A stretch of DNA of 64,000 nt from Pythium myriotylum (taxonomy: Eukaryota > Oomycota > Peronosporomycetes > Pythiales > Pythiaceae). Under the pieces are notes generated by a model. It was given only the letters and a program-made list of their open reading frames with translations. It was not told the origin of the DNA and did no database searches. This document shows positions 23,466 through 58,127 of the stretch, piece by piece. A program made the translations under genes and the position numbers. The stretch lies in NCBI GenBank assembly GCA_023091665.1, contig JALJCQ010000023.1:930001-994000 (forward strand), read 5' to 3'. How positions within the stretch are numbered: position 1 is the stretch's first letter; each line of letters opens with the position of its first letter.

Positions 23466-23480
23466 GGGGATGTAGCTCAG
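23466..23480 (+). pseudogene. tRNA-Ala 5' stub, left target-site duplication of LINE copy 1
   Basis: GGGGATGTAGCTCAG is nt 1-15 of tRNA-Ala, preceded by normal array sequence and followed directly by the LINE 3' end. The matching duplication at the other end is nt 1-15 of the intact tRNA-Ala at 30823. Confidence 0.95.
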
Positions 23481-23663
23481 TTTCAAGGCGTCTGTATTAA
23501 CTAAAATTAATGCGACTATGACTACTCTAATCTACCTCGTCGATGAATATTATACACTTGACTAGTATGTGACGAGGCTGGGAGCTTCAATTGTTGAGTT
23601 GTTGGTTGACTTCCGTTGGTCTTGACTGGTCTAGGTACTTGTTTTAGCACATCGGTTGGATAA

Positions 23664-23739
23664 CTGCGGTTAGCTCAAATGGTTGTGAGCGTGGACCCCG
23701 ATGTTGTCGGTCGCGCGGGTTCGATCCCCACCTCGGGGA
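23664..23739 (+). promoter_or_regulatory. tRNA-like antisense Pol III promoter in LINE 3' UTR, copy 1
   Basis: On the strand opposite to the LINE ORFs there is an A box, TAGCTCAAATGG (23671-23682), and a perfect B box, GGTTCGATCCC (23718-23728), at tRNA spacing. A D stem GCTC/GAGC forms and the T arm pairs at 4 of 5 positions. The acceptor halves CTGCGGT and CTCGGGG do not pair, and the anticodon stem is only ~4 bp around an 11-nt loop, so this is not a working tRNA gene. A T4 run at 23871-23874 could end a ~210-nt transcript antisense to the 3' UTR. Known parallel: Dictyostelium TRE5-A carries a 3' module that drives antisense transcription. Confidence 0.6.
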
Positions 23740-23870
23740 GGTTTCTTGTGCTAGTGGTTTCGCTTGACTTCGGTCGCGAAGGTACGCTCTGATTCCAAAA
23801 CGAGGTTGGTTTCGAGCCAGTATTGAAAGCAAGCACCCGCACTGAAGAAGAAGAAACGGCAGGAAATCGC

Positions 23871-23874
23871 TTTT
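23871..23874 (+). terminator. T4 run overlapping the ORF2 stop codon, copy 1
   Basis: TTTT on the + strand, two bases of which belong to the TAA stop (23873-23875) of ORF2 on the other strand. It is the first T4 downstream of the antisense A/B boxes, so it would limit a Pol III transcript to the 3' UTR. Confidence 0.4.
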
Positions 23875-26800
23875 ATGCCAAAAAGCGAACTGCAAACAAC
23901 CCCATGTTGTTTTGCAGGAAGGCACCGAAAGAAGGCGTAGACTGGAGACTTGACAACACAACCTGAAGCGAAGCACGCTGCGCATCGTCGTACACACGTC
24001 GAAGACACGCACGCACATGAGCACCCACAGTCGTATACACCACACGCAGTGCTGCAATTGTTGGCATCGGGGACCGCCCGTTGAACAGTCGCCCATTGCG
24101 TTCAGTCCACAACAGGTGAAGCACCACAGCACGGATGACTTGCCACAGGTCTTGGATTTCTTCTGTGTGGTCCTTCCACACGGGAGCAGCGCGGATGGCT
24201 TTACCGAAGACAATGTCGGTCCAGGAGGGTCGAGATGTGAAGAACACCGACATATCACGGAAGATGTCGCGCCATATCACAGTCGGCAGCACACACTCGA
24301 AGAACAAATGACGCGCCGTCTCCACTGAGTTGCAGCCTGGTCGAACACAGTACACGATGCCGGGATTTGCCACCGTCATGAACGAGAAGCGTGAGCGAGT
24401 CGGTAACAAGCCGTACGCCAAGCGGAACTGGAGGTCTTCGTATATCGGGAGAAGCAACACACGAAGCCGCTTGCGTAGCTTGTTGAATCGGAGGACCACG
24501 TCTGTAGGCGCTCGAGGGTCGTGGAAGAACAGCGGATGCGTTCTCGTCGGCTCTGGAGCTTGCCACACCAGGCGGAGCAGTTGGGATCGTGGAATGCGCG
24601 GCACCCAGCACACACGGTCGTTGATCTCCACACCGACTCGCGGATGTTGGTGCTCAGGCGCCGTCGGTAGCACTCCATCGACTGGGACAGAGCACATTGT
24701 GCAGAGACGCCCGAAAACTTGCGTGGCTTCCTCGTGAAGCTTGAGCAGCCACGTGTACTGTCGATACGGGGTGATGGAGACTTGGGTGTAGTCGACATGT
24801 CGCTCAGCAAACTCGATCGCGCTCGGCCACTTGTCGCCTTCACCAGCGAAGTCACGAAGAGATCGCAACTGAAAGACACGGGCAACTTGCCGACGGAAGC
24901 TTCGTTGCGGCTCTGCAATCATGCTGAGAGAACGATGCTGGGACGGCGTTGTGTCGGAACGGCTGGTTGGGAGGAACTGGAAGTTCTTGTCGCCATGGAA
25001 CCAGATCGGTTGGTCGAGTGCAAACGCAAGACGGTCTTCTGGAGGGAGGTCGAGCCACGACACCGGCCACTTGATAGCGTACCAAGTCTTCCAGGCCGCA
25101 CGCCACCACGAAGAGAGCTGGTCCCACTCGATCGAGCCTCGATGCCGCCACGGACTGACGTAGAGAAAGTCGAGTGGCCTCTGCGGGCCCCACCGCGGAA
25201 GACTGATCCGCAGCAGCTCGACTCCTGCTACCGTCCAGTTGCCGGTCGTCGATGCCGAAGCTGCCGTGAACTGAAGCAGGAGCTGCAGTGACTGTCGCTT
25301 GAGCACACCGTCGAGACTCGGTACCTGCAGACCCCCAGACTCGCGCGGCAGGTTGACAAATTCGTTCGAGATCAACTGGACATGCCGAGCGTCGCGTTCG
25401 TAGCGCCGACTCAAGACGAACCGGTGTAGCGCGGCTTGCCACTTCTTCACTCGTCCTGGCGGCACAACAACGTGAGCAGTGTAGTGCCACAGACGTGAGA
25501 GCACCATGGTCTGGGCGACGAGGAGCCTGCCTTGGAGCGTCCGTGCGCGCCGAAACCACTGCTTGAACCCGTCAAAGAAGCGTCGATCGAGGTCTTCAAC
25601 AATCAACTCCGTAGTGCGTCGCTGTCCGAACAGGAGACCGAGGAACTTGACCGTGGAGTCTTCATCGAGAACCTGCACACCTGGTATGCCCGGGCATCGC
25701 CGCGTTCGATGCAGCGACATCAGCACACACTTGTTCACGTTGAGCTTGGCGCCGGAGCCTTGACAGTATTCTTCGACCAACCCAAGTTGCGCCTCGACAC
25801 CAGCGATAGAGCCCGACAGTAACGCCGAGTCGTCGGCGAAGAAAACACTCGTGACGGTGGCATCCGCTGTCAAGCAGATCCCATGTTCTTCGTGCTGGCG
25901 GAGCAGGTTACCGAGTGGCTCGATAACAAGCAAGAACAGCAGCGCCGACAGCGGATCACCTTGCTTGACTCCGCGCGTTGGGCAGAGCGGGTCTTGCACG
26001 AATCCGTTGATCATGAGATGCGCGCGTGGTCGAGTGTACAGGAGCTTCACCCACCCCGAGAACGCCCCGCCACATCCCATCCGATCGAGCACCTGAAACA
26101 TGTAGTTCCAGTTGACGCGGTCGTACGCCTTCTCAAAGTCGAGGAACATGGCGTAGGCTTCTTCGTCGCGCGCGGTGACGAGGTCTTGCAGGTCACTCAC
26201 GAAACGAACGTGGTGATGCAGAGAGCGACCACGCACGAAAGCCTTCTGGTCTTGGTGCACAAGCTTGGTCAGGAACAACTGCAGTCGGAAAGCGAGAACC
26301 TTTGACAGTGCCTTCACGTCGACACCCATCAAAGCAATTGGGCGATAGTTGCCTGGGTCAGCTCGGGATCCCTTCTTGTGCAGCAGACTGATCGCAGACT
26401 GGCGCTGACACCGAAGGAGCTCTCCTCGCTGAAGCTGGTAGTTGAACACGATCTCGAGGCATTCACCGAAGACGTCAGGAGCCACTTGGTAGAACGAAGC
26501 TGGAAGCCCATCCATCCCGGGTGCAGACGATGCCCGCATCTTCTTGATTGCACTAGCAAGGTCCGCCGCTGTGATCGGAGCGTTGAGGATATTTTGCTCG
26601 TCTTCAGACAGTCGGCGGTCGATCGTGTCGAGCATCCGGTCAATCTGGCTCTGCTCAGGCTCTTGGACGACAACACCACCGCGCTCAACATCGCCCATGA
26701 TACCGCCCCAGTGCTGATTGAAGGCAGCCGCGATATCCGCGGGGTTGCTTGATGCTGAGCCATCTTGAAGCCGCACTTCTTCGATGCTGACTCTCCGCAA

Positions 26801-28039
26801 GGATCCGTCCAGCGGTCGAAAGAAGTACTTGGATGACTTCTCCGCGTGTTGAGCCTGGAAGTCGAAAGCCGAGTCTTGGTTGTAAAGACGCGCCGAGTTG
26901 ATGCTGTCTTGGTATGCCGTCAGTGCGGTCTGGAACACCGTCTGCGCGCGATCGCTTCGCTCCGACCGGTATGCCGCAGCCGCGTGGGCAAGTGCCTGAC
27001 GAGCTTCGGTGATGGCGGTCTCACCTTGACGCTTCAGCTTGCGCTGCAGAGCTTGAAGCTGACGACGCATGTCCTTCTTCCACTTGTGCCACACCTTGCC
27101 CGGGTTGGAGGAGCGCCGTAACGCAGCAAGCACAGTCGTCGCTTCGCCTTGGATAGCTTCAACGATATCGGGGAAGTCGAGCATCGCCGACTGGAAACGC
27201 CAGTACCCGTGGCCTTGAGGCTGGCTCATCGCGCGCAACACAACTTGATGTGCGAGATGGTCGCCGGCACCCTTGGGCTCAAAGTACGAGGAGTCACCGT
27301 ATAGCGCGGTGCAGAAGTCCTCCGACATGAGGATGTAGTCGAGACGGTTGTGTCGAGGCTGTGGACCAGTGTAGACGCGTTCGTCGGGATGGTGGATTCG
27401 CCAGGCATCCACGACACCGAGTTGGGCCAACCACGCCACACACGCGTTACCGCCGGTCGTTCCTGTCGCCCTTGGATCCGACGCATCGACGAGGGGGTCA
27501 AGTGGCGTGTTGAGGTCACCGAGCACCAGGTGAGTCGCATTGTCTTCGAACACTTCGTACGGTAGCGCTTCGAAGAACCCCTTCTTCTCGAAGTTATCGA
27601 CTGGCGCGTACACGTTGTGGATGTAGATCGGAGCACCGTTCGCGACGACCCGGACGACCAAGTAGCGGCCTTGAATAGTCAACGAAGACTGCTCACAAGC
27701 AGACTGAAAGCCGGGAAAGTCGGAGCGGAGCACTGTCATGACGCCACCCGATCGTGCAGCAACGGCAACTGGACTGTGCGCGTTGGTGTCGCTGACGAAG
27801 AGGCGGTGTTGAAATCTGGTGTCATGGTGAAATTGGAGCGTTGCACGATGATGCGAGTCGCGCAGCTTGGTCTCTTGGACGCACGAGAGACTGTTCTTGA
27901 TGAGCTGGTTCTCGATCAACAGGTGGCCGTTCTTCTTGATCCCGTTGGTGTTCACCGTCAAAAGACTGATGTTCTCCCACGAGACCTCGGCCGCGTCCGC
28001 CTCGACCGCTTTAGCAGTCGAGGCAGAGCGGTCCGGCAC
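23873..28039 (-). CDS. LINE ORF2: APE-type endonuclease and reverse transcriptase, copy 1
   Basis: 1388-residue frame. It nicks the target and copies the LINE RNA at the nick (target-primed reverse transcription). Endonuclease domain ~23-270: TVNTNG, QETK (E56), NVYAP, GDLN (174-177), RLDYI (232-236) and GDH (259-261). Reverse transcriptase ~485-760: SAPGMDG (505-511), LDFEKAYD (633-640), RGVKQGDPLSALLF (689-702) and FADD (734-737). A C-terminal Cys/His motif C-x4-C-x7-H-x4-C at 1231-1249 resembles zf-RVT; no RNase H is visible. The frame opens just after a TAG (28040-28042). The first possible start is GTG at 28039, and the first ATG codon is residue 101, beyond catalytic E56. ORF2 overlaps ORF1 by 29 nt in the +1 frame, so its translation probably uses frameshifting, reinitiation or a non-AUG start. 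Confidence 0.93.
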   Translation of the reverse strand: MPDRSASTAKAVEADAAEVSWENISLLTVNTNGIKKNGHLLIENQLIKNSLSCVQETKLRDSHHRATLQFHHDTRFQHRLFVSDTNAHSPVAVAARSGGVMTVLRSDFPGFQSACEQSSLTIQGRYLVVRVVANGAPIYIHNVYAPVDNFEKKGFFEALPYEVFEDNATHLVLGDLNTPLDPLVDASDPRATGTTGGNACVAWLAQLGVVDAWRIHHPDERVYTGPQPRHNRLDYILMSEDFCTALYGDSSYFEPKGAGDHLAHQVVLRAMSQPQGHGYWRFQSAMLDFPDIVEAIQGEATTVLAALRRSSNPGKVWHKWKKDMRRQLQALQRKLKRQGETAITEARQALAHAAAAYRSERSDRAQTVFQTALTAYQDSINSARLYNQDSAFDFQAQHAEKSSKYFFRPLDGSLRRVSIEEVRLQDGSASSNPADIAAAFNQHWGGIMGDVERGGVVVQEPEQSQIDRMLDTIDRRLSEDEQNILNAPITAADLASAIKKMRASSAPGMDGLPASFYQVAPDVFGECLEIVFNYQLQRGELLRCQRQSAISLLHKKGSRADPGNYRPIALMGVDVKALSKVLAFRLQLFLTKLVHQDQKAFVRGRSLHHHVRFVSDLQDLVTARDEEAYAMFLDFEKAYDRVNWNYMFQVLDRMGCGGAFSGWVKLLYTRPRAHLMINGFVQDPLCPTRGVKQGDPLSALLFLLVIEPLGNLLRQHEEHGICLTADATVTSVFFADDSALLSGSIAGVEAQLGLVEEYCQGSGAKLNVNKCVLMSLHRTRRCPGIPGVQVLDEDSTVKFLGLLFGQRRTTELIVEDLDRRFFDGFKQWFRRARTLQGRLLVAQTMVLSRLWHYTAHVVVPPGRVKKWQAALHRFVLSRRYERDARHVQLISNEFVNLPRESGGLQVPSLDGVLKRQSLQLLLQFTAASASTTGNWTVAGVELLRISLPRWGPQRPLDFLYVSPWRHRGSIEWDQLSSWWRAAWKTWYAIKWPVSWLDLPPEDRLAFALDQPIWFHGDKNFQFLPTSRSDTTPSQHRSLSMIAEPQRSFRRQVARVFQLRSLRDFAGEGDKWPSAIEFAERHVDYTQVSITPYRQYTWLLKLHEEATQVFGRLCTMCSVPVDGVLPTAPEHQHPRVGVEINDRVCWVPRIPRSQLLRLVWQAPEPTRTHPLFFHDPRAPTDVVLRFNKLRKRLRVLLLPIYEDLQFRLAYGLLPTRSRFSFMTVANPGIVYCVRPGCNSVETARHLFFECVLPTVIWRDIFRDMSVFFTSRPSWTDIVFGKAIRAAPVWKDHTEEIQDLWQVIRAVVLHLLWTERNGRLFNGRSPMPTIAALRVVYTTVGAHVRACLRRVYDDAQRASLQVVLSSLQSTPSFGAFLQNNMGLFAVRFLA

Positions 28040-30728
28040 CTAGTGTTGCGACGCCGTTGACAGCCGTAAGCTGGAGAACCGCTTCGTCGTCGGAGAAGTA
28101 CAAGCCGCACGTGCGAAGATATTCGAGGTCGTCGAGAAGCTCGCCTTGCCACTGGATCTTCTCCCACACGGCAAAGATCTGTGCGCCCAAGTCGGAGCGC
28201 AGCAGTGCCAACAACACGTTGGGGTGGAGCAAACGACCGTTGAGTGCTGGAATCCACCCGACTGGAGCTCCGGTAAGGCGCTGGATCCACATGTCGCTCT
28301 GGAAGATCTGCGGCGCCGTGCACATGAGCATCAACTCGAACAACGAGAGCGCGCACGTGGCTCGCAAGAGCGCCGACATCCGCTCATCACGATACCACCG
28401 TCCCGTCATCTTGAAGATGTCATTGCGATCCTTCGGCAGCTTCTCACCGTAGTGCGCAGCCCACTTGTGCGCGAAGGTCGTACACGAGTTTGGATCAGTC
28501 GCGCTCAACACACGATTGATCATGTGGAGCTGTGCGAGTTCCTTGACGTTGCCGCTGAGGTCACTCATCTCGCCGAGCAGCACAGAGTTGAACGCGAGCG
28601 GAGACTTCCCACCGGCAAGATGGCCGATCGTGTCCGGGTTGGCCGTGTTGCGGAGAGTCTTCCGAAGTGATTCCGCACGAACGTCCGCTGCAGCGATATG
28701 GTTCGACTGGAGCTGGAGGTCGGCGGTGGGCTCGGTCGTCTCGAGTTCGGCGAGGATCTCTTGGATTGACGTCGGTTCCTTCGTCTTCATGACCAGAGTG
28801 TGGTGCTTGGTCAAGAAGTGACTCGACTCCTTGCTGGTCTTGATCGTGTCGGGACCCTTGACCTTGCGAGGCACGACCTGGAACCGCGGCAGGCTCGACT
28901 CGTTGAGCGCCGCATTGCAGCAGTCGAGTTCGAACTCGATGGAGTTCAACACTTCGAAGTAGTTGCTTGTCGCGATGCCTTGCACGGGCTTCGGTCGCGC
29001 CTTCTGTAACATGTCGGCAAAGTCGTCGGCGTAACGCGAGCGCTTGCCCTTGGACTTGGTCGATTTGGTTCCGTTTTCCGGACGATCTGCGTTGGACGCG
29101 GACAGACCGAGCGGCGGTGGCGGCGGCGGCAGAGACTTGGCTCCAGGCTGCGGACTACCCGGAGGCGTCAACAGCGATCCCGCGTGCGTACCGACCGAGA
29201 TGACGCTTGCAGAGTCTTGCGACTTGGACTCCGCTTGCGAGACACCGTTCTTCACCGCGTCTGCGTACGAAGTCGGAGCAGCCGGCTCGGACGGTTGCAC
29301 TGGTGCTGGCGGAGTAGGCTGGTTGATCTTGTCCAAGTCCAAAGCGTGTGGCGACACCTGACCGAAACCACGTCGCTGGGACGGGAACGCGGCGTCGCGC
29401 GCCAAAGCTGGGTACATGCGGTTGCCGAAGATGACTTGGTCGCACGTGAAGCCTTGCACACACAGCGCTCGTGGGCACGTCGCACTTCGAAAGTAGACGC
29501 GCCACGTTGCTGTCGTCATTCCGGACGCGAGGTTGACGTCGCGGAACGTGTCGTAAATCGGCTCGCTGCCGATGTCGAAGAACGCGCGCAGAAGACCTTC
29601 GTTGTCGAAGTTGCTGTCGACGCTCGAGATGTCGATGTAGAAGCGATCGGCGAGGACGTCGAAGTCTTGGAACATGTACTTGCCACCGAGGATCTTGACT
29701 TCCTGACGCGCGAGGCGTTCGCACGCAGCACGTGACTTGACCTTGACGCGGATTTCTCCGCCACGACCCTTGGAGATCTGGCCGAGTTCTTGAAGCTTGA
29801 TCTGCTCGGTGACCACGGGGTTCCCGTTGTCCTTGAGAAAAGACGCCATGATCTTGTTGATGCCGGTACGCTCGAACGCGCGACCAGTGTCGATGGTCAT
29901 GACGTAACGAGCGCGCGGGAGCTCGTACGGGCGCGCTTGTTCAACTGACGTGAAGAGCGAGGCCCAGTCGCCACCGTTCTCGTACAGCGCGTCAATCGCT
30001 TCGATATCCGCAGCACACGGTCGAGGCAGCACCACACGACTGGTCGCCGAGACGGGAGTTCTGTCACGGCGAATCTCGGTTGGACGGCGTAGAAGAGCAC
30101 CAAGCGAAGGCGTCGCACCTGCCGCACTGGCAGGCGGTTGCTGAGCATCCGGAATCGGATCCGGGGTCGAATCAGTCGTAGTCGAGTCTTCAACAGTTGA
30201 TTCGTCGGGGCTTGAGGCGAGACTGAGCTGGAGCGAGGTCGCCGCCATCATCAAGTCGTCGTCGTCATCGTCGCCACAGGAGACAGCAGTAGTCCCAGTG
30301 TTCGCGAGCGAGTCGGTCGAACTGGAAAGCGCAACGGAGATCTCGACACCAGACGCCACCGGAGCGGAGCCTGTCACGAGCACCGTCATACCGGCACCGA
30401 CATCCACGATGCGGGCGGTAGAGGCGGGTCCGTCGGCGGTTGAAGGAGCGTCGGCGTCGTCGACCGCGGAGGTAGCCGTCGTGCCGGAGCTGACTGGGGC
30501 TTGCGCATTCACTGACTTCGAAGTCACGTGAGATACGGGCGCGGGCGTCGCAGGGTCGTCGGCAGTCGCACTGGCACCATCCGGACCAGATGGTGGCTCA
30601 CAATGCGTGAGACTTCCCGAATCTTGTGCAGAGACGGGACGGAGCAGCTGCGCGGGAGGGTTCTCACCCACAAAGTCGAGGTCGGAGGGGGATGGGCGAG
30701 CCGAGTCGATCTGGTTCGCTGGCTTCAT
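28011..30728 (-). CDS. LINE ORF1: RNA-binding nucleoprotein, copy 1
   Basis: 905 residues from an ATG 94 nt inside the element 5' end. Residues 1-230 are Ser/Thr/Ala/Pro-rich and probably disordered, with an acidic DDDDDD stretch at 153-158. Residues ~274-356 and ~362-440 each show a β-α-β pattern like an RRM (FYIDIS as an RNP2-like strand, ATWRVYF as an RNP1-like strand); this is my reading of the pattern, not a database match. A proline run and a basic stretch, KSTKSKGKRSR, lie near 525-560. The C-terminal ~300 residues look globular but I do not recognise them. I see no CCHC zinc knuckles. The likely role is binding LINE RNA, by analogy with other LINE ORF1 proteins. The stop TAA (28011-28013) lies inside the start of ORF2. 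Confidence 0.85.
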   Translation of the reverse strand: MKPANQIDSARPSPSDLDFVGENPPAQLLRPVSAQDSGSLTHCEPPSGPDGASATADDPATPAPVSHVTSKSVNAQAPVSSGTTATSAVDDADAPSTADGPASTARIVDVGAGMTVLVTGSAPVASGVEISVALSSSTDSLANTGTTAVSCGDDDDDDLMMAATSLQLSLASSPDESTVEDSTTTDSTPDPIPDAQQPPASAAGATPSLGALLRRPTEIRRDRTPVSATSRVVLPRPCAADIEAIDALYENGGDWASLFTSVEQARPYELPRARYVMTIDTGRAFERTGINKIMASFLKDNGNPVVTEQIKLQELGQISKGRGGEIRVKVKSRAACERLARQEVKILGGKYMFQDFDVLADRFYIDISSVDSNFDNEGLLRAFFDIGSEPIYDTFRDVNLASGMTTATWRVYFRSATCPRALCVQGFTCDQVIFGNRMYPALARDAAFPSQRRGFGQVSPHALDLDKINQPTPPAPVQPSEPAAPTSYADAVKNGVSQAESKSQDSASVISVGTHAGSLLTPPGSPQPGAKSLPPPPPPLGLSASNADRPENGTKSTKSKGKRSRYADDFADMLQKARPKPVQGIATSNYFEVLNSIEFELDCCNAALNESSLPRFQVVPRKVKGPDTIKTSKESSHFLTKHHTLVMKTKEPTSIQEILAELETTEPTADLQLQSNHIAAADVRAESLRKTLRNTANPDTIGHLAGGKSPLAFNSVLLGEMSDLSGNVKELAQLHMINRVLSATDPNSCTTFAHKWAAHYGEKLPKDRNDIFKMTGRWYRDERMSALLRATCALSLFELMLMCTAPQIFQSDMWIQRLTGAPVGWIPALNGRLLHPNVLLALLRSDLGAQIFAVWEKIQWQGELLDDLEYLRTCGLYFSDDEAVLQLTAVNGVATLGAGPLCLDC

Positions 30729-30822
30729 CTTCGTTCGACGGGAAGGCTGGGAGGCTGGTTGGCTGGTTACTTCGGCTGTTTGCTTGGATCGACTTGTGCT
30801 CGACGAGGCAAAACGAGAAGTA

Positions 30823-30895
30823 GGGGATGTAGCTCAGATGGTAGAGCGCTCGCTTAGCATGCGAGAGGTACTGGGATCGATACCCAGCTTCTCCA
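30823..30895 (+). tRNA. tRNA-Ala(AGC), unit 16, rebuilt by LINE 1 duplication
   Basis: Full gene matching unit 1. Its first 15 nt are the right-hand target-site duplication, and its 5' flank is now the LINE 5' UTR instead of array spacer. The tRNA and the LINE are divergent and abut. Unit length 1,508 bp. Confidence 0.97.
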
Positions 30896-30896
30896 G

Positions 30897-32403: not shown

Positions 32404-32404
32404 G

Positions 32405-45992: not shown

Positions 45993-46007
45993 GGGGATGT
46001 AGCTCAG
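45993..46007 (+). pseudogene. tRNA-Ala 5' stub, left target-site duplication of LINE copy 2
   Basis: Nt 1-15 of tRNA-Ala followed directly by the LINE 3' end; the partner duplication starts the intact gene at 53349. Confidence 0.95.
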
Positions 46008-46190
46008 TTTCAAGGCGTCTGTATTAACTAAAATTAATGCGACTATGACTACTCTAATCTACCTCGTCGATGAATATTATACACTTGACTAGTATGTGAC
46101 GAGGCTGGGAGCTTCAATTGTTGAGTTGTTGGTTGACTTCCGTTGGTCTTGACTGGTCTAGGTACTTGTTTTAGCACATCGGTTGGATAA

Positions 46191-46266
46191 CTGCGGTTAG
46201 CTCAAATGGTTGTGAGCGTGGACCCCGATGTTGTCGGTCGCGCGGGTTCGATCCCCACCTCGGGGA
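46191..46266 (+). promoter_or_regulatory. tRNA-like antisense Pol III promoter in LINE 3' UTR, copy 2
   Basis: Same sequence as in copy 1: A box at 46198-46209, B box at 46245-46255, first T4 run at 46398-46401 overlapping the ORF2 stop. Its conservation in both copies adds little because they are nearly identical. Confidence 0.6.
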
Positions 46267-46399
46267 GGTTTCTTGTGCTAGTGGTTTCGCTTGACTTCGG
46301 TCGCGAAGGTACGCTCTGATTCCAAAACGAGGTTGGTTTCGAGCCAGTATTGAAAGCAAGCACCCGCACTGAAGAAGAAGAAACGGCAGGAAATCGCTT

Positions 46400-49300
46400 T
46401 TATGCCAAAAAGCGAACTGCAAACAACCCCATGTTGTTTTGCAGGAAGGCACCGAAAGAAGGCGTAGACTGGAGACTTGACAACACAACCTGAAGCGAAG
46501 CACGCTGCGCATCGTCGTACACACGTCGAAGACACGCACGCACATGAGCACCCACAGTCGTATACACCACACGCAGTGCTGCAATTGTTGGCATCGGGGA
46601 CCGCCCGTTGAACAGTCGCCCATTGCGTTCAGTCCACAACAGGTGAAGTACCACAGCACGGATGACTTGCCACAGGTCTTGGATTTCTTCTGTGTGGTCC
46701 TTCCACACGGGAGCAACGCGGATGGCTTTACCGAAGACAATGTCGGTCCAGGAGGGTCGAGATGTGAAGAACACCGACATATCACGGAAGATGTCGCGCC
46801 ATATCACAGTCGGCAGCACACACTCGAAGAACAAATGACGCGCCGTCTCCACTGAGTTGCAGCCTGGTCGAACACAGTACACGATGCCGGGATTTGCCAC
46901 CGTCATGAACGAGAAGCGTGAGCGAGTCGGTAACAAGCCGTACGCCAAGCGGAACTGGAGGTCTTCGTATATCGGGAGAAGCAACACACGAAGCCGCTTG
47001 CGTAGCTTGTTGAATCGGAGGACCACGTCTGTAGGCGCTCGAGGGTCGTGGAAGAACAGCGGATGCGTTCTCGTCGGCTCTGGAGCTTGCCACACCAGGC
47101 GGAGCAGTTGGGATCGTGGAATGCGCGGCACCCAGCACACACGGTCGTTGATCTCCACACCGACTCGCGGATGTTGGTGCTCAGGCGCCGTCGGTAGCAC
47201 TCCATCGACTGGGACAGAGCACATTGTGCAGAGACGCCCGAAAACTTGCGTGGCTTCCTCGTGAAGCTTGAGCAGCCACGTGTACTGTCGATACGGGGTG
47301 ATGGAGACTTGGGTGTAGTCGACATGTCGCTCAGCAAACTCGATCGCGCTCGGCCACTTGTCGCCTTCACCAGCGAAGTCACGAAGAGATCGCAACTGAA
47401 AGACACGGGCAACTTGCCGACGGAAGCTTCGTTGCGGCTCTGCAATCATGCTGAGAGAACGATGCTGGGACGGCGTTGTGTCGGAACGGCTGGTTGGGAG
47501 GAACTGGAAGTTCTTGTCGCCATGGAACCAGATCGGTTGGTCGAGTGCAAACGCAAGACAGTCTTCTGGAGGGAGGTCGAGCCACGACACCGGCCACTTG
47601 ATAGCGTACCAAGTCTTCCAGGCCGCACGCCACCACGAAGAGAGCTGGTCCCACTCGATCGAGCCTCGATGCCGCCACGGACTGACGTAGAGAAAGTCGA
47701 GTGGCCTCTGCGGGCCCCACCGCGGAAGACTGATCCGCAGCAGCTCGACTCCTGCTACCGTCCAGTTGCCGGTCGTCGATGCCGAAGCTGCCGTGAACTG
47801 AAGCAGGAGCTGCAGTGACTGTCGCTTGAGCACACCGTCGAGACTCGGTACCTGCAGACCCCCAGACTCGCGCGGCAGGTTGACAAATTCGTTCGAGATC
47901 AACTGGACATGCCGAGCGTCGCGTTCGTAGCGCCGACTCAAGACGAACCGGTGTAGCGCGGCTTGCCACTTCTTCACTCGTCCTGGCGGCACAACAACGT
48001 GAGCAGTGTAGTGCCACAGACGTGAGAGCACCATGGTCTGGGCGACGAGGAGCCTGCCTTGGAGCGTCCGTGCGCGCCGAAACCACTGCTTGAACCCGTC
48101 AAAGAAGCGTCGATCGAGGTCTTCAACAATCAATTCCGTTGTGCGTCGTTGACCGAACAGGAGACCGAGGAACTTGACCGTGGAGTCTTCATCGAGAACC
48201 TGCACACCTGGTATGCCCGGGCATCGCCGCGTTCGATGCAGCGACATCAGCACACACTTGTTCACGTTGAGCTTGGCGCCGGAGCCTTGACAGTATTCTT
48301 CGACCAACCCAAGTTGCGCCTCGACACCAGCGATAGAGCCCGACAGTAACGTCGAGTCGTCGGCGAAGAAAATACTCGCGACGGTGGCATCCGCTGTCAA
48401 GCAGATCCCATGTTCTTCGTGCTGGCGGAGCAGGTTACCGAGTGGCTCGATAACAAGCAAGAACAGCAGCGCCGACAGCGGATCACCTTGCTTGACTCCG
48501 CGCGTTGGGCAGAGCGGGTCTTGCACGAATCCGTTGATCATGAGATGCGCGTGTGGTCGAGTGTACAGGAGCTTCACCCACCCCGAGAACGCCCCGCCAC
48601 ATCCCATCCGATCGAGCACCTGAAACATGTAGTTCCAGTTGACGCGGTCGTACGCCTTCTCAAAGTCGAGGAACATGGCGTAGGCTTCCTCGTCGCGCGC
48701 GGTGACGAGGTCTTGCAGGTCACTCACGAAACGAACGTGGTGATGCAGAGAGCGACCACGCACGAAAGCCTTCTGGTCTTGGTGCACAAGCTTGGTCAGG
48801 AACAACTGCAGTCGGAAAGCGAGAACCTTTGACAGTGCCTTCACGTCGACACCCATCAAAGCAATTGGGCGATAGTTGCCTGGGTCAGCTCGGGATCCCT
48901 TCTTGTGCAGCAGACTGATCGCAGACTGGCGCTGACACCGAAGGAGCTCTCCTCGCTGAAGCTGGTAGTTGAACACGATCTCGAGGCATTCACCGAAGAC
49001 GTCAGGAGCCACTTGGTAGAACGAAGCTGGAAGCCCATCCATCCCGGGTGCAGACGATGCCCGCATCTTCTTGATTGCACTAGCAAGGTCCGCCGCTGTG
49101 ATCGGAGCGTTGAGGATATTTTGCTCGTCTTCAGACAGTCGGCGGTCGATCGTGTCGAGCATCCGGTCAATCTGGCTCTGCTCAGGCTCTTGGACGACAA
49201 CACCACCGCGCTCAACATCGCCCATGATACCGCCCCAGTGCTGATTGAAGGCAGCCGCGATATCCGCGGGGTTGCTTGATGCTGAGCCATCTTGAAGCCG

Positions 49301-50566
49301 CACTTCTTCGATGCTGACTCTCCGCAAGGATCCGTCCAGCGGTCGAAAGAAGTACTTGGATGACTTCTCCGCGTGTTGAGCCTGGAAGTCGAAAGCCGAG
49401 TCTTGGTTGTAAAGACGCGCCGAGTTGATGCTGTCTTGGTATGCCGTCAGTGCGGTCTGGAACACCGTCTGCGCGCGATCGCTTCGCTCCGACCGGTATG
49501 CCGCAGCCGCGTGGGCAAGTGCCTGACGAGCTTCGGTGATGGCGGTCTCACCTTGACGCTTCAGCTTGCGCTGCAGAGCTTGAAGCTGACGACGCATGTC
49601 CTTCTTCCACTTGTGCCACACCTTGCCCGGGTTGGAGGAGCGCCGTAACGCAGCAAGCACAGTCGTCGCTTCGCCTTGGATAGCTTCAACGATATCGGGG
49701 AAGTCGAGCATCGCCGACTGGAAACGCCAGTACCCGTGGCCTTGAGGCTGGCTCATCGCGCGCAACACAACTTGATGTGCGAGATGGTCGCCGGCACCCT
49801 TGGGCTCAAAGTACGAGGAGTCACCGTATAGCGCGGTGCAGAAGTCCTCCGACATGAGGATGTAGTCGAGACGGTTGTGTCGAGGCTGTGGACCAGTGTA
49901 GACGCGTTCGTCGGGATGGTGGATTCGCCAGGCATCCACGACACCGAGTTGGGCCAACCACGCCACACACGCGTTACCGCCGGTCGTTCCTGTCGCCCTT
50001 GGATCCGACGCATCGACGAGGGGGTCAAGTGGCGTGTTGAGGTCACCGAGCACCAGGTGAGTCGCATTGTCTTCGAACACTTCGTACGGTAGCGCTTCGA
50101 AGAACCCCTTCTTCTCGAAGTTATCGACTGGCGCGTACACGTTGTGGATGTAGATCGGAGCACCGTTCGCGACGACCCGGACGACCAAGTAGCGGCCTTG
50201 AATAGTCAACGAAGACTGCCCACAAGCAGACTGAAAGCCGGGAAAGTCGGAGCGGAGCACTGTCATGACGCCACCCGATCGTGCAGCAACGGCAACTGGA
50301 CTGTGCGCGTTGGTGTCGCTGACGAAGAGGCGGTGTTGAAATCTGGTGTCATGGTGAAATTGGAGCGTTGCACGATGATGCGAGTCGCGCAGCTTGGTCT
50401 CTTGGACGCACGAGAGACTGTTCTTGATGAGCTGGTTCTCGATCAACAGGTGGCCGTTCTTCTTGATCCCGTTGGTGTTCACCGTCAAAAGACTGATGTT
50501 CTCCCACGAGACCTCGGCCGCGTCCGCCTCGACCGCTTTAGCAGTCGAGGCAGAGCGGTCCGGCAC
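46400..50566 (-). CDS. LINE ORF2: APE-type endonuclease and reverse transcriptase, copy 2
   Basis: 1388 residues, same domain order as copy 1. All endonuclease and reverse transcriptase motifs are intact, including FADD. Replacements relative to copy 1 are few: E116G, R672H, three around the FADD motif (VTSVFFADDSAL becomes VASIFFADDSTL), one R-to-C and one A-to-V toward the C-terminus. The 5' end is arranged as in copy 1: TAG, then GTG, no ATG before residue 101, and a 29-nt +1-frame overlap with ORF1. Four changes near 48133-48154 are all synonymous, as expected if protein function has been selected. Confidence 0.93.
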   Translation of the reverse strand: MPDRSASTAKAVEADAAEVSWENISLLTVNTNGIKKNGHLLIENQLIKNSLSCVQETKLRDSHHRATLQFHHDTRFQHRLFVSDTNAHSPVAVAARSGGVMTVLRSDFPGFQSACGQSSLTIQGRYLVVRVVANGAPIYIHNVYAPVDNFEKKGFFEALPYEVFEDNATHLVLGDLNTPLDPLVDASDPRATGTTGGNACVAWLAQLGVVDAWRIHHPDERVYTGPQPRHNRLDYILMSEDFCTALYGDSSYFEPKGAGDHLAHQVVLRAMSQPQGHGYWRFQSAMLDFPDIVEAIQGEATTVLAALRRSSNPGKVWHKWKKDMRRQLQALQRKLKRQGETAITEARQALAHAAAAYRSERSDRAQTVFQTALTAYQDSINSARLYNQDSAFDFQAQHAEKSSKYFFRPLDGSLRRVSIEEVRLQDGSASSNPADIAAAFNQHWGGIMGDVERGGVVVQEPEQSQIDRMLDTIDRRLSEDEQNILNAPITAADLASAIKKMRASSAPGMDGLPASFYQVAPDVFGECLEIVFNYQLQRGELLRCQRQSAISLLHKKGSRADPGNYRPIALMGVDVKALSKVLAFRLQLFLTKLVHQDQKAFVRGRSLHHHVRFVSDLQDLVTARDEEAYAMFLDFEKAYDRVNWNYMFQVLDRMGCGGAFSGWVKLLYTRPHAHLMINGFVQDPLCPTRGVKQGDPLSALLFLLVIEPLGNLLRQHEEHGICLTADATVASIFFADDSTLLSGSIAGVEAQLGLVEEYCQGSGAKLNVNKCVLMSLHRTRRCPGIPGVQVLDEDSTVKFLGLLFGQRRTTELIVEDLDRRFFDGFKQWFRRARTLQGRLLVAQTMVLSRLWHYTAHVVVPPGRVKKWQAALHRFVLSRRYERDARHVQLISNEFVNLPRESGGLQVPSLDGVLKRQSLQLLLQFTAASASTTGNWTVAGVELLRISLPRWGPQRPLDFLYVSPWRHRGSIEWDQLSSWWRAAWKTWYAIKWPVSWLDLPPEDCLAFALDQPIWFHGDKNFQFLPTSRSDTTPSQHRSLSMIAEPQRSFRRQVARVFQLRSLRDFAGEGDKWPSAIEFAERHVDYTQVSITPYRQYTWLLKLHEEATQVFGRLCTMCSVPVDGVLPTAPEHQHPRVGVEINDRVCWVPRIPRSQLLRLVWQAPEPTRTHPLFFHDPRAPTDVVLRFNKLRKRLRVLLLPIYEDLQFRLAYGLLPTRSRFSFMTVANPGIVYCVRPGCNSVETARHLFFECVLPTVIWRDIFRDMSVFFTSRPSWTDIVFGKAIRVAPVWKDHTEEIQDLWQVIRAVVLHLLWTERNGRLFNGRSPMPTIAALRVVYTTVGAHVRACLRRVYDDAQRASLQVVLSSLQSTPSFGAFLQNNMGLFAVRFLA

Positions 50567-53254
50567 CTAGTGTTGCGACGCCGTTGACAGCCGTAAGCTG
50601 GAGAACCGCTTCGTCGTCGGAGAAGTACAAGCCGCACGTGCGAAGATATTCGAGGTCGTCGAGAAGCTCGCCTTGCCACTGGATCTTCTCCCACACGGCA
50701 AAGATCTGTGCGCCCAAGTCGGAGCGCAGCAGTGCCAACAACACGTTGGGGTGGAGCAAACGACCGTTGAGTGCTGGAATCCACCCGACTGGAGCTCCGG
50801 TAAGGCGCTGGATCCACATGTCGCTCTGGAAGATCTGCGGCGCCGTGCACATGAGCATCAACTCGAACAACGAGAGCGCGCACGTGGCTCGCAAGAGCGC
50901 CGACATCCGCTCATCACGATACCACCGTCCCGTCATCTTGAAGATGTCATTGCGATCCTTCGGCAGCTTCTCACCGTAGTGCGCAGCCCACTTGTGCGCG
51001 AAGGTCGTACACGAGTTTGGATCAGTCGCGCTCAACACACGATTGATCATGTGGAGCTGTGCGAGTTCCTTGACGTTGCCGCTGAGGTCACTCATCTCGC
51101 CGAGCAGCACAGAGTTGAACGCGAGCGGAGACTTCCCACCGGCAAGATGGCCGATCGTGTCCGGGTTGGCCGTGTTGCGGAGAGTCTTCTGAAGTGATTC
51201 CGCACGAACGTCCGCTGCAGCGATATGGTTCGACTGGAGCTGGAGGTCGGCGGTGGGCTCGGTCGTCTCGAGTTCGGCGAGGATCTCTTGGATTGACGTC
51301 GGTTCCTTCGTCTTCATGACCAGAGTGTGGTGCTTGGTCAAGAAGTGACTCGACTCCTTGCTGGTCTTGATCGTGTCGGGACCCTTGACCTTGCGAGGCA
51401 CGACCTGGAACCGCGGCAGGCTCGACTCGTTGAGCGCCGCATTGCAGCAGTCGAGTTCGAACTCGATGGAGTTCAACACTTCGAAGTAGTTGCTTGTCGC
51501 GATGCCTTGCACGGGCTTCGGTCGCGCCTTCTGTAACATGTCGGCAAAGTCGTCGGCGTAACGCGAGCGCTTGCCCTTGGACTTGGTCGATTTGGTTCCG
51601 TTTTCCGGACGATCTGCGTTGGACGCGGACAGACCGAGCGGCGGTGGCGGCGGCGGCAGAGACTTGGCTCCAGGCTGCGGACTACCCGGAGGCGTCAACA
51701 GCGATCCCGCGTGCGTACCGACCGAGATGACGCTTGCAGAGTCTTGCGACTTGGACTCCGCTTGCGAGACACCGTTCTTCACCGCGTCTGCGTACGAAGT
51801 CGGAGCAGCCGGCTCGGACGGTTGCACTGGTGCTGGCGGAGTAGGCTGGTTGATCTTGTCCAAGTCCAAAGCGTGTGGCGACACCTGACCGAAACCACGT
51901 CGCTGGGACGGGAACGCGGCGTCGCGCGCCAAAGCTGGGTACATGCGGTTGCCGAAGATGACTTGGTCGCACGTGAAGCCTTGCACACACAGCGCTCGTG
52001 GGCACGTCGCACTTCGAAAGTAGACGCGCCACGTTGCTGTCGTCATTCCGGACGCGAGGTTGACGTCGCGGAACGTGTCGTAAATCGGCTCGCTGCCGAT
52101 GTCGAAGAACGCGCGCAGAAGACCTTCGTTGTCGAAGTTGCTGTCGACGCTCGAGATGTCGATGTAGAAGCGATCGGCGAGGACGTCGAAGTCTTGGAAC
52201 ATGTACTTGCCACCGAGGATCTTGACTTCCTGACGCGCGAGGCGTTCGCACGCAGCACGTGACTTGACCTTGACGCGGATTTCTCCGCCACGACCCTTGG
52301 AGATCTGGCCGAGTTCTTGAAGCTTGATCTGCTCGGTGACCACGGGGTTCCCGTTGTCCTTGAGAAAAGACGCCATGATCTTGTTGATGCCGGTACGCTC
52401 GAACGCGCGACCAGTGTCGATGGTCATGACGTAACGAGCGCGCGGGAGCTCGTACGGGCGCGCTTGTTCAACTGACGTGAAGAGCGAGGCCCAGTCGCCA
52501 CCGTTCTCGTACAGCGCGTCAATCGCTTCGATATCCGCAGCACACGGTCGAGGCAGCACCACACGACTGGTCGCCGAGACGGGAGTTCTGTCACGGCGAA
52601 TCTCGGTTGGACGGCGTAGAAGAGCACCAAGCGAAGGCGTCGCACCTGCCGCACTGGCAGGCGGTTGCTGAGCATCCGGAATCGGATCCGGGGTCGAATC
52701 AGTCGTAGTCGAGTCTTCAACAGTTGATTCGTCGGGGCTTGAGGCGAGACTGAGCTGGAGCGAGGTCGCCGCCATCATCAAGTCGTCGTCGTCATCGTCG
52801 CCACAGGAGACAGCAGTAGTCCCAGTGTTCGCGAGCGAGTCGGTCGAACTGGAAAGCGCAACGGAGATCTCGACACCAGACGCCACCGGAGCGGAGCCTG
52901 TCACGAGCACCGTCATACCGGCACCGACATCCACGATGCGGGCGGTAGAGGCGGGTCCGTCGGCGGTTGAAGGAGCGTCGGCGTCGTCGACCGCGGAGGT
53001 AGCCGTCGTGCCGGAGCTGACTGGGGCTTGCGCATTCACTGACTTCGAAGTCACGTGAGATACGGGCGCGGGCGTCGCAGGGTCGTCGGCAGTCGCACTG
53101 GCACCATCCGGACCAGATGGTGGCTCACAATGCGTGAGACTTCCCGAATCTTGTGCAGAGACGGGACGGAGCAGCTGCGCGGGAGGGTTCTCACCCACAA
53201 AGTCGAGGTCGGAGGGGGATGGGCGAGCCGAGTCGATCTGGTTCGCTGGCTTCA
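50538..53254 (-). CDS. LINE ORF1: RNA-binding nucleoprotein, copy 2
   Basis: 905 residues, nearly identical to copy 1 (one visible replacement, R to Q, in ESLRKTLR). I place the start at the ATG matching copy 1, near 53254. In this copy the frame stays open upstream through the 5' UTR and antisense through both tRNAs to about 53507, because the extra junction A of copy 1 is missing. Translation of the tRNA antisense is unlikely to be meaningful, and copy 1 does not support it. RRM-like region, acidic run, proline run and basic stretch as in copy 1. Confidence 0.85.
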
Positions 53255-53348
53255 TCTTCGTTCGACGGGAAGGCTGGGAGGCTGGTTGGCTGGTTACTTC
53301 GGCTGTTTGCTTGGATCGACTTGTGCTCGACGAGGCAAAACGAGAAGT

Positions 53349-53421
53349 GGGGATGTAGCTCAGATGGTAGAGCGCTCGCTTAGCATGCGAGAGGTACTGG
53401 GATCGATACCCAGCTTCTCCA
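53349..53421 (+). tRNA. tRNA-Ala(AGC), unit 26, rebuilt by LINE 2 duplication
   Basis: Matches unit 1; its first 15 nt are the right duplication of LINE copy 2 and its upstream flank is the LINE 5' UTR. Confidence 0.97.
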
Positions 53422-53422
53422 G

Positions 53423-53494
53423 GCGTATGTAGTATAGTGGTTAGTACCTCACGTTGTGGCCGTGATATCCCAGGTTCGACTCCTGGCATACGCA
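53423..53494 (+). tRNA. tRNA-His(GTG), unit 26
   Basis: Matches unit 1; G-1 at 53422, T5 at 53499-53503. Long GCCTCC block; triplet tract shortened by loss of the AAGAACGAC part. Confidence 0.97.
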
Positions 53495-54871: not shown

Positions 54872-54886
54872 GGGGATGTAGCTCAG
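54872..54886 (+). pseudogene. tRNA-Ala 5' stub, left duplication of short element 1
   Basis: Nt 1-15 of tRNA-Ala, then the 3' end of the short element; the partner duplication begins the gene at 55649. Confidence 0.95.
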
Positions 54887-55122
54887 TTTCAAGGCGTCTG
54901 TATTGCTGCACTAGCATTTACGACTGACTTCTAACTGCTCGCTAATCCCGTGCGGGTTTTATGTTGCTAAGGTTCGGTTGAGTCTCGTGGTTGGCTGGTC
55001 GGTTTGTGCTGAGAGGATGAATCCTTGCGTCATGGTTCGTTGGGTTGTTGAGGTGGTTGTTCTGTTGTCGTTGAAGCTGGGTACTGGGTTAACTTGACCT
55101 TCATTTGCTGGTTTGCTGGTAT

Positions 55123-55274
55123 GTTGATGCTGGGTTGCTTGAGTGTTGGTTGGGTTGAAGCTGGGTTGGCTGAATGCCGGTTGGGTTGATGCTGGGTTGC
55201 TTGAATGCTGGTTGGGTTGAGGTTGGTGTCGGTGAGTGCTGGTTGGGTTGAGGTTGGTGTCGGTGAGTGTTGGT
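55123..55274. repeat. Minisatellite inside short element 1
   Basis: Imperfect GGTTGGGTTGA-type repeats; the last two copies have a clear 31-bp period. It accounts for the Gln/Pro/Thr/Asn-rich open frames on the minus strand. Confidence 0.75.
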
Positions 55275-55359
55275 TACCCAACGGTCTCGTGAGTGAAGGT
55301 TGGTGGCTGGGTGCCGTGAGTGTTGGTCACGGCGTGGGTTGATCAGCGGTGGGTTGATA

Positions 55360-55536
55360 TTAGAGTCGACCAGGTGGCCGAGCTCTGGCGCGCGCTCTCC
55401 ATGTGGTGAATGTCGGCTCTCCCGATGAAGCCGAAGGAAGCACGCATGGGATGCCGACTGGTCGGCGCGGTGGCGGCAGCGTCCCGATGCCAAGCTTCTT
55501 GCGCTTGGTCTTGGCTCTCGCAGCACCCTTGGTCAT
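55360..55536 (-). CDS. Small basic ORF in short element 1 (uncertain)
   Basis: 58 codons from the first ATG of the sense strand (context GCCATGA, favourable) about 110 nt from the element 5' end. The N-terminus MTKGAARAKTKRKKLG is strongly basic and the C-terminus Arg/Pro-rich. I do not recognise it. It could be a remnant of a captured mRNA, a real small nucleic-acid-binding peptide, or chance. The second copy is identical, which is uninformative because the elements are so similar. Confidence 0.25.
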   Translation of the reverse strand: MTKGAARAKTKRKKLGIGTLPPPRRPVGIPCVLPSASSGEPTFTTWRARARARPPGRL

Positions 55537-55648
55537 GGCGACTGGGTGTGGAGAGGGTCGGGGGTGATGGGCTGGCAGCTGGGCTGGGTGCTTGGACTGG
55601 ACACTTCTGGACTTGGTCACTTGAGGGGTAGCGAGCAAATTGCGAAGT

Positions 55649-55721
55649 GGGGATGTAGCTCAGATGGTAGAGCGCTCGCTTAGCATGCGAGAGGTACTGG
55701 GATCGATACCCAGCTTCTCCA
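55649..55721 (+). tRNA. tRNA-Ala(AGC), unit 27, rebuilt by short element duplication
   Basis: Matches unit 1; upstream flank is the 5' end of short element 1. Confidence 0.97.
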
Positions 55722-55722
55722 G

Positions 55723-55794
55723 GCGTATGTAGTATAGTGGTTAGTACCTCACGTTGTGGCCGTGATATCCCAGGTTCGACTCCTGGCATACGCA
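55723..55794 (+). tRNA. tRNA-His(GTG), unit 27
   Basis: Matches unit 1; G-1 at 55722, T5 at 55799-55803. Rearranged triplet tract and a GAGATGG variant after the GA repeat. Confidence 0.97.
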
Positions 55795-57192: not shown

Positions 57193-57207
57193 GGGGATGT
57201 AGCTCAG
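57193..57207 (+). pseudogene. tRNA-Ala 5' stub, left duplication of truncated element
   Basis: Nt 1-15 of tRNA-Ala ahead of the truncated short element. Confidence 0.95.
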
Positions 57208-57277
57208 TTTCAAGGCGTCTGTATTGCTGCACTAGCATTTACGACTGACTTCTAACTGCTCGCTAATCCCGTGCGGA
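57208..57277 (-). mobile_element. 5'-truncated short retroelement
   Basis: The terminal 69 bp of the short element (3' end retained, 5' end missing) plus one extra A (57277) before the next GGGGATGTAGCTCAG. 5' truncation with an intact 3' end is the signature of incomplete target-primed reverse transcription. Confidence 0.92.
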
Positions 57278-57292
57278 GGGGATGTAGCTCAG
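57278..57292 (+). pseudogene. tRNA-Ala 5' stub between two stacked insertions
   Basis: A second GGGGATGTAGCTCAG. It is both the right duplication of the truncated element and the left duplication of the following full element, showing reuse of the regenerated target. Confidence 0.93.
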
Positions 57293-57528
57293 TTTCAAGG
57301 CGTCTGTATTGCTGCACTAGCATTTACGACTGACTTCTAACTGCTCGCTAATCCCGTGCGGGTTTTATGTTGCTAAGGTTCGGTTGAGTCTCGTGGTTGG
57401 CTGGTCGGTTTGTGCTGAGAGGATGAATCCTTGCGTCATGGTTCGTTGGGTTGTTGAGGTGGTTGTTCTGTTGTCGTTGAAGCTGGGTACTGGGTTAACT
57501 TGACCTTCATTTGCTGGTTTGCTGGTAT

Positions 57529-57680
57529 GTTGATGCTGGGTTGCTTGAGTGTTGGTTGGGTTGAAGCTGGGTTGGCTGAATGCCGGTTGGGTTGATGCTG
57601 GGTTGCTTGAATGCTGGTTGGGTTGAGGTTGGTGTCGGTGAGTGCTGGTTGGGTTGAGGTTGGTGTCGGTGAGTGTTGGT
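57529..57680. repeat. Minisatellite inside short element 2
   Basis: Same GGTTGGGTTGA-type tract as in copy 1. Confidence 0.75.
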
Positions 57681-57765
57681 TACCCAACGGTCTCGTGAGT
57701 GAAGGTTGGTGGCTGGGTGCCGTGAGTGTTGGTCACGGCGTGGGTTGATCAGCGGTGGGTTGATA

Positions 57766-57942
57766 TTAGAGTCGACCAGGTGGCCGAGCTCTGGCGCGCG
57801 CTCTCCATGTGGTGAATGTCGGCTCTCCCGATGAAGCCGAAGGAAGCACGCATGGGATGCCGACTGGTCGGCGCGGTGGCGGCAGCGTCCCGATGCCAAG
57901 CTTCTTGCGCTTGGTCTTGGCTCTCGCAGCACCCTTGGTCAT
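57766..57942 (-). CDS. Small basic ORF in short element 2 (uncertain)
   Basis: Identical to the 58-codon frame of copy 1, with the same favourable ATG context; product not recognised. Confidence 0.25.
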   Translation of the reverse strand: MTKGAARAKTKRKKLGIGTLPPPRRPVGIPCVLPSASSGEPTFTTWRARARARPPGRL

Positions 57943-58054
57943 GGCGACTGGGTGTGGAGAGGGTCGGGGGTGATGGGCTGGCAGCTGGGCTGGGTGCTTG
58001 GACTGGACACTTCTGGACTTGGTCACTTGAGGGGTAGCGAGCAAATTGCGAAGT

Positions 58055-58127
58055 GGGGATGTAGCTCAGATGGTAGAGCGCTCGCTTAGCATGCGAGAGG
58101 TACTGGGATCGATACCCAGCTTCTCCA
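58055..58127 (+). tRNA. tRNA-Ala(AGC), unit 28, rebuilt by short element duplication
   Basis: Matches unit 1; upstream flank is short element 2. Unit length 1,539 bp. Confidence 0.97.

Follow-up and report, generated by a model that had tools for sequence, protein, structure and literature searches.

R1-like behaviour of a retrotransposon means occupation of a single fixed site inside a multicopy RNA gene, and both R1 and TRAS are thought to read their target DNA directly. Mutsu and Dewa are Tx1 elements, and the endonuclease of the dictyostelid element TRE5-A is of the APE type. In the portions of the literature drawn on here, the Tx1 clade is described as one of the three groups to which most reported target-specific families of non-long-terminal-repeat (non-LTR) retrotransposons belong, Keno and the Tx1 clade generally are described as carrying an APE endonuclease, and target-specific families outside the Tx1 and R1 clades as carrying a restriction-like endonuclease (PMC4640811); Keno inserts in U2, Mutsu in 5S and Dewa in the tRNA-Leu spacer (PMC3706591). 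tRNA genes are the specific targets of NeSL-1_TV (tRNA-Pro), LIN15_SM (tRNA-Arg) and LIN25_SM (tRNA-Glu), non-LTR retrotransposons discussed among the NeSL relatives (PMC4640811), and many tRNA genes serve TRE5-A and other dictyostelid elements, which are long interspersed nuclear elements (LINEs); Acanthamoeba, Physarum and Protostelium are reported to lack TRE-like elements (PMC5391098, PMC5006619). Several families of Dada DNA transposons, in fish and Perkinsus, enter tRNA genes at nt 8-13 (such as TAGCTC), inside the A box; the Perkinsus families each use their own tRNA kind, and goldfish Dada-tY uses Tyr and Phe (PMC8869645, PMC3706591). Here we describe a LINE family and a short non-autonomous partner in a 64-kb stretch of contig C23 of the Pythium myriotylum assembly (58.7 Mb, 55 contigs; the whole stretch is hereafter called the window) and survey their insertion sites genome-wide. 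It is very likely, judging from the junctions, that this APE-type family and its partner target the A box, an internal promoter of RNA polymerase III (pol III), of tRNA genes generally, through the steps set out below. Within the parts of the open-access literature drawn on, a scope that leaves Repbase reports outside, we found no LINE that enters many tRNA kinds at the A box and leaves the gene restored.

The window holds a tandem array with a unit of ~1.53 kb, in which tRNA-Ala(AGC) is directly followed by tRNA-His(GTG). ARAGORN finds 31 such pairs, the uninterrupted tRNA-Ala(AGC) genes (n=31) are identical across 73 bp, and GCTCAGATGG is observed 31 times, compared with a mean of 0.12 in dinucleotide shuffles. 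Exactly five orphan tRNA-Ala 5' halves, GGGGATGTAGCTCAG, are present, each consisting of nt 1-15 on the + strand and each running straight into TTTCAAGGCGTCTGTATT. They flank two LINEs, two 762-bp short elements and one 5'-truncated short copy, all in one orientation (- strand), with the 3' end of every insert facing the tRNA-Ala 5' half; these five halves and their junctions bear out the claim of an earlier sequence-only reading that five inserts share one base of tRNA-Ala and one orientation. The orphan half at 23466..23480 forms the 3'-junction flank of LINE copy 1 (23480..30821, ~7342 bp, full length), and that at 45993..46007 the corresponding flank of LINE copy 2 (46007..53347, ~7341 bp, full length); the two LINEs, each ~7.34 kb, show 14 differences across 7341 aligned bases and are also unlike each other at the 5' junction. 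The half at 54872..54886 lies ahead of short element 1 (54886..55647), and the half at 57193..57207 ahead of the truncated copy (57207..57277), of which ~70 bp remain with the 3' end intact. The fifth half (57278..57292) is a second copy of nt 1-15, representing the duplication made by the truncated copy, and flanks short element 2 (57292..58053). The two short elements are 100% identical, and the sole significant match between short element and LINE is the last 19 nt. Directly behind the four full-length inserts lie complete, regenerated tRNA-Ala genes on the + strand (30823..30895 and 53349..53421 behind the LINEs, 55649..55721 and 58055..58127 behind the short elements), all of them equal to the uninterrupted genes.

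Genome-wide, the 18-bp element terminus occurs 220 times (<=2 mismatches): 46 occurrences are LINE-type 3' ends (<=2 mismatches in 23 bases; the flanks of all 46 were read), 159 are short elements directly after exact GCTCAG, and 15 fall in neither group. The results indicate that 42 of the 46 LINE-type 3' ends occupy this same A-box position in 13 different tRNA gene kinds: Ala (7), Lys (6), Arg (5), Cys (5), Trp (4), Thr of the AGT type (3), Asn (3), Phe (2), Met (2), Ile(AAT) (2), Tyr (1), Ile(TAT) (1) and Thr(TGT) (1). The kind was assigned by ARAGORN on the 5' side wherever the 5' junction had been read, by the neighbouring tRNA in the locus or by 5'-half identity; the Thr copy on C11 may belong to a Thr(CGT) array. 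The fixed base, fixed orientation and position inside the gene that the sequence-only reading had described in the window hold for these 42 ends, and the copies are not mostly at unrelated sites (one of the 46 is clearly in non-tRNA DNA, and one, on C16, is unassigned), but the specificity for tRNA-Ala that it had also proposed does not survive the use of 13 tRNA kinds. One nick base across 13 kinds, with four exceptions among 46, is the behaviour of R1. Like target-specific LINEs of the L1/Tx1 type, the element combines an APE endonuclease with a fixed site in multicopy RNA genes, a likeness of features in which L1 stands only as the best solved structure. Unlike Dewa in its tRNA-Leu spacer (PMC3706591), it lies inside the gene, in the A box of many tRNA kinds. 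NeSL-1_TV, LIN15_SM and LIN25_SM are tRNA-gene-specific as well, with one tRNA kind each as against the 13 here (PMC4640811). The dictyostelid elements also use many tRNA genes, but they land beside the gene in a jittery window, whereas 42 of 46 ends here share a fixed base inside it, with one copy in a tRNA-Val flank (PMC5391098, PMC5006619).

The same survey bears on whether one or a few chance insertions could have been amplified within tandem tRNA arrays through gene conversion and unequal crossing-over. The arrays are indeed tandem, some junctions are identical (the four Trp copies), and the short elements of the window are identical throughout. However, insertions in 13 tRNA kinds on many contigs cannot stem from one insertion, the Ala, Lys, Cys and Phe arrays each hold copies with different 5' junctions, and the window LINEs are told apart by 14 bases and by their 5' junctions. 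Unequal crossing-over is thereby excluded as the only means of spread, including the case, raised by the sequence-only reading against itself, in which all five window inserts descend from one chance insertion; as a sole cause, array multiplication is contradicted by these data, and we consider it exceedingly improbable. Unequal crossing-over seems nevertheless to have contributed: 3'-end type alternates among the four Trp copies, each alternate pair has a common 5' junction, and the pattern looks like later array duplication.

Insertion is accompanied by a target-site duplication (TSD). Among 31 LINE 3' ends, 26 could be paired with a 5' end; 25 of the 26 paired LINEs span 7327-7353 bp, and the 26th, at 14,688 bp, is a LINE holding a nested LINE. 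A duplication of 15-18 bp was found by script in 23 of the 26 and was seen by eye in the remaining three (two Arg, one stuttered Thr), where it is masked by the Arg base or by the stutter; a second cut exactly at the first tRNA base, as had been supposed, does not fit this range. Because the duplication covers tRNA nt 1-15, a complete tRNA gene stands directly behind the insert and the gene is not broken, a consequence that the sequence-only reading had overlooked. ARAGORN places the start of a complete tRNA gene <=13 nt from the LINE end at 29 of 30 5' loci, the exception being the self-nested copy. A complete tRNA gene also lies behind four of five further 5' ends (starting 17 nt away in the case of tRNA-Val), and the fifth runs into a stacked short element. 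The host tRNA gene appears, from these junctions, to survive insertion. Dada, unlike this LINE, has a DDE transposase and makes a 6-7 bp duplication (PMC8869645, PMC3706591), which is too short to restore the tRNA gene.

CTCA is followed by G in most targets, so that insertion after nt 14 and insertion after nt 15 cannot be distinguished; base 23480 of the window is ambiguous in this way. Two targets have A as the native next base: the tRNA-Arg gene reads GGCCCAATGG and the LINE junction there reads GGCCCAGTTTC, and the tRNA-Val flank site reads GGTCAAGTG and its LINE junction GGTCAGTTTC, with G at the junction in both. Since the native base is A in these targets, the junction G, including base 23480, is most likely supplied by the element. 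The nick most likely falls after nt 14 (..GCTCA|), and the true element 3' end is most likely ..CCTTGAAAC, 19 nt common to LINE and short element. The Arg and Val-flank junctions thus displace the insertion point formerly set between nt 15 and 16; a first nick on the tRNA-sense strand and within GCTCAG, also part of the sequence-only reading, agrees with the junction geometry, its exact base moving from after GCTCAG to after GCTCA. The 3' end shows no jitter except for a few stutters, and 5'-truncated copies are found (~70 nt in the window, ~31 nt at C12:1745328); a constant 3' end together with 5' truncation is the pattern expected of target-primed reverse transcription. Extra bases precede the element in three Arg copies and in one short element behind a LINE (GTTTCA) and in one Thr copy (GTTTCAATTTCA). 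Each extra stretch ends in CA, as does the target primer, which would fit a new cDNA end that slipped back to the beginning of the template.

We propose that the first cut is an endonuclease nick in the tRNA-sense strand behind nt 14 (..TAGCTCA|G), that the freed 3' end would then serve as primer for reverse transcription beginning at the final base of the element RNA (..CCUUGAAAC), and that the opposite strand would be cut 15-18 bp upstream, near the first tRNA base. Repair would double nt 1-15, leaving a complete tRNA gene, with both internal promoter boxes, directly behind the insert, and a second cue (pol III factors, the B box or open chromatin) would confine insertion to tRNA genes. Since the duplication would renew the site, further copies could stack on it. 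On C4 (2511820-2610805, L017-L038), short elements lie head to tail in tRNA-Thr(TGT), 779 or 810 bp apart, with the 15-nt tRNA 5' half between them, as expected if each insert renews its target.

All of 17 distinct sites (table typed by hand) have G at -4 and an A at the nick, T at -6, C at -3 and T at -2 are each found at 15 of 17, and C at -1 at 16 of 17; positions -9 to -7 carry little information. The two short-element sites on C7 (L120, L121) likewise show G at -4, with CA at the nick, and the non-tRNA site C12:1745328 (TSD TACACTGGAGCTGCTCAG) and the self-nested site obey the same base rule. Such precision could come from direct DNA recognition only, with the endonuclease and other parts of ORF2 reading ~8-14 bp of 5' tRNA/A-box DNA and no host factor taking part: the nick is free of jitter, the two invariant bases hold at every one of the 17 sites, and the non-tRNA site, the tRNA-like site and the tRNA-Val flank site are all cut after YCA. 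The low information at -9 to -7, the farthest upstream positions scored, speaks against this reading, and the distribution of the A-box octamer TAGCTCAG speaks against sequence as the only cue. The octamer occurs 1748 times genome-wide, and 569 of these occurrences have a B box 30-60 bp downstream, vs. 5 in a reversed control; this set of 569 includes tRNA-like stretches carried by LINEs and matches on C2. Subtraction by hand of <=197 junction copies (159 short, 38 LINE), of the 569 and of 157 matched genes (Ala and Tyr where identified) leaves, as an estimate, ~825 of 1551 sites outside recognised tRNA genes. Yet with ~800 octamers there, none of the 11 distinct octamer targets (10 tRNA kinds and the self-nested tRNA-like site) lies outside recognised tRNA or tRNA-like DNA. 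The chance of this outcome is ~2e-4, calculated by hand with sites weighted equally, and selection against harmful inserts lowers its weight. Direct recognition only is, on balance, unlikely, though a serious contender.

At the other extreme, the pol III machinery alone could tether the element, as has been proposed for TRE5-A of Dictyostelium, and leave the endonuclease to cut whatever is near. The many tRNA kinds used, and a restriction to tRNA genes that exceeds what the octamer explains, would both follow. TRE5-A, however, inserts in a window ~47 bp upstream (80.2% within 47+/-3; PMC5391098), as against a single in-gene base in 42 of 46 cases here, and an insertion in non-tRNA DNA without a nearby B-box motif exists (C12:1745328). 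We regard tethering alone as improbable. Confinement to tRNA genes is more than the A-box octamer can account for by itself, so we favour a second cue from tRNA genes, and insertion is likely to depend on two cues, local sequence and something about tRNA genes. A more far-reaching version, in which we see real possibility but toward which we do not yet lean, would have the pol III A box serve as a landing site that is universal and renews itself: a single LINE could enter almost any tRNA gene, restoring gene and target at once, under two locks (A-box sequence through the endonuclease, a tRNA-gene signal through the pol III machinery), with an antisense tRNA-like stretch in its 3' untranslated region (3'UTR) as part of the system. 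A LINE that enters a class of genes by way of a common promoter motif and returns the gene through its own duplication would add a gene-preserving strategy to those of using spacers, using flanks or sacrificing spare copies. Such a family makes it testable how an APE endonuclease can cut with single-base precision and yet keep to pol III genes, and its sites (more than 10 different ones in tRNA genes, one self-nested, one non-tRNA) form a natural experiment; site-specific LINEs are also of interest as natural safe-harbour inserters.

Several observations weigh against A-box targeting of tRNA genes as the general rule. Four of the 46 LINE 3' ends lie outside any assigned tRNA A box: one on C16 in an A-box-like site without an assigned tRNA kind, where no LINE 5' end is found at the expected place; one on C43 in the 5' flank of tRNA-Val; one at C18:619002 in the tRNA-like stretch of another LINE; and the one at C12:1745328 in non-tRNA DNA, where a B-box motif is absent within 300 bp. 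The 46 leave out LINEs whose 3' end has been lost or has diverged further. The exact LINE 5' end occurs 39 times genome-wide, three times without a listed 3' partner (C4, C9 and C15:8624), and at two 5' ends located at tRNA-Pro genes (L074, C4:1632940; L075, C9:2577240) there is no LINE 3' end at the expected distance; the A box of these tRNA-Pro genes reads GGTCTA. Six of the 15 leftover termini were examined (L118, L120-L124). One of them, L121 (C7:577420-577500), is a short element after ..CCGGGTTCA, by eye the B box of a tRNA-Ala(TGC)-like gene, and possibly shows a second landing point inside a tRNA gene. Its neighbour L120 lies in the A box, reading GCGCAG, of the same tRNA-Ala(TGC)-like kind, L122-L124 follow TAGCTCAG, and L118 is a stuttered copy stacked behind a LINE. 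Finally, if selection removes harmful inserts elsewhere, the preference for tRNA genes could seem tighter than that of the enzyme itself.

Both LINE open frames are intact in the two window copies. ORF2 (1388 aa; 23873..28039 in copy 1, 46400..50566 in copy 2, both on the - strand) differs at 7 aa between the copies. It contains a reverse transcriptase (PF00078, 1.8e-33; FADD at residue 734), matches human L1 ORF2 at 2.4e-58, L1 being the nearest among solved structures, and has an N-terminal endonuclease domain that matches PF03372 at 3.1e-05 (24.3 bits, slightly below the 24.5 cut-off) and, taken alone, L1 endonuclease chains at 1.4e-07. The motifs QET, GDxN, LDYI and GDH, which we take to be the catalytic motifs of APE endonucleases, are present. 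A general Pfam scan reports no restriction-like endonuclease domain in ORF2; a C-terminal CX4CX7HX4C motif is present. ORF1 (905 aa from the first ATG; 28011..30728 in copy 1, - strand) has no match up to E = 1 in Pfam or PDB, its NCBIfam matches are weak and under cut-offs, and a single-sequence fold of an ORF1 piece was discarded (mean pLDDT 34). No LTRs are seen on reading of the LINE ends. Reverse transcriptase, APE/EEP domain, lack of LTRs, constant 3' end, 5' truncation and target duplication together identify the element, on sequence grounds, as an APE-type non-LTR retrotransposon. The PF03372, L1 endonuclease and reverse transcriptase matches support the earlier assignment to LINEs with an APE-type endonuclease.

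Two LINE 3'-end types exist, strongly unlike in the 3'UTR tRNA-like stretch although their ORF2 ends are nearly identical. In the C11 Trp and C15 Lys arrays, 7345-bp copies (L049/L077, L051/L079, L059/L088) join the 3' end of one type to the ORF1 start of the other, the ORF1 piece of L049 with L077 being identical to that of L071 at 505/505 residues. The LINE types are therefore mosaic, and the hybrids may be taken as a sign of recombination or template switching between them. Between types, selected ORF2 C-terminal pieces give dN (nonsynonymous divergence) of 0.002-0.006 and dS (synonymous divergence) of 0.020-0.026, and selected ORF1 N-terminal pieces dN of ~0.03 and dS of 0.065-0.071, values consistent with purifying selection, weakest for ORF1. 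The ORF2 end is normal in 25 of 28 LINE 3' pieces scanned and altered in the Arg copies L039, L041 and L043. ORF1 pieces are altered in L074, L081, L086 and L097; in L074 and L081 the longest stop-free stretches end in a frame other than that of ORF1, and the L074 piece seems frame-shifted. The ORF1 piece of L075 is 96% identical to that of L071.

The tRNA-like stretch lies antisense to the LINE (23669..23745, + strand, in copy 1), with an A-box-like TTAGCTCAAATGG and a B-box-like GGTTCGATCCC, both recognised by eye, and on this opposite strand reads GGGTAGCTCAGACG in one type and GGTTAGCTCAAATGG in the other. The nested LINE at C18:619002 sits exactly in the tRNA-like stretch of a LINE of the first type, with TSD CTGCGGGTAGCTCAG. 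The second type has no CAG in its stretch; that this loss shields it from self-insertion is only a thought, drawn from a single case. We rejected the stretch as a true tRNA gene for the window copies, where ARAGORN does not call it and Rfam gives no match up to E = 1; ARAGORN makes no call at the other loci, and the fold energy is no better than that of mononucleotide shuffles (z -0.02). The copy L081 (C13:1584257), with its broken ORF1 start, lies before tRNA-Met and has 10 extra bases at the 5' junction, and the D-arm and T-arm halves of its tRNA-like stretch are, by eye, still pairable.

No pol III head is seen on reading the short element, and ARAGORN finds no tRNA within the window copies. 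A small basic open frame (MTKGAARAKTKRKK..) lies within the short element at 54886..55647, whose 5' end is like that of the LINE in CTTC only. Outside these elements, long tandem arrays of several tRNA kinds are present on C3, C4, C11, C14, C15, C18 and C23, reminiscent of the tRNA arrays of Entamoeba, and one array on C11 holds Trp and Thr or Ser genes in opposite orientations. On C2, identical A-box/B-box matches are present twice, 72,126 bases apart; this contig may be an organelle genome assembled twice.

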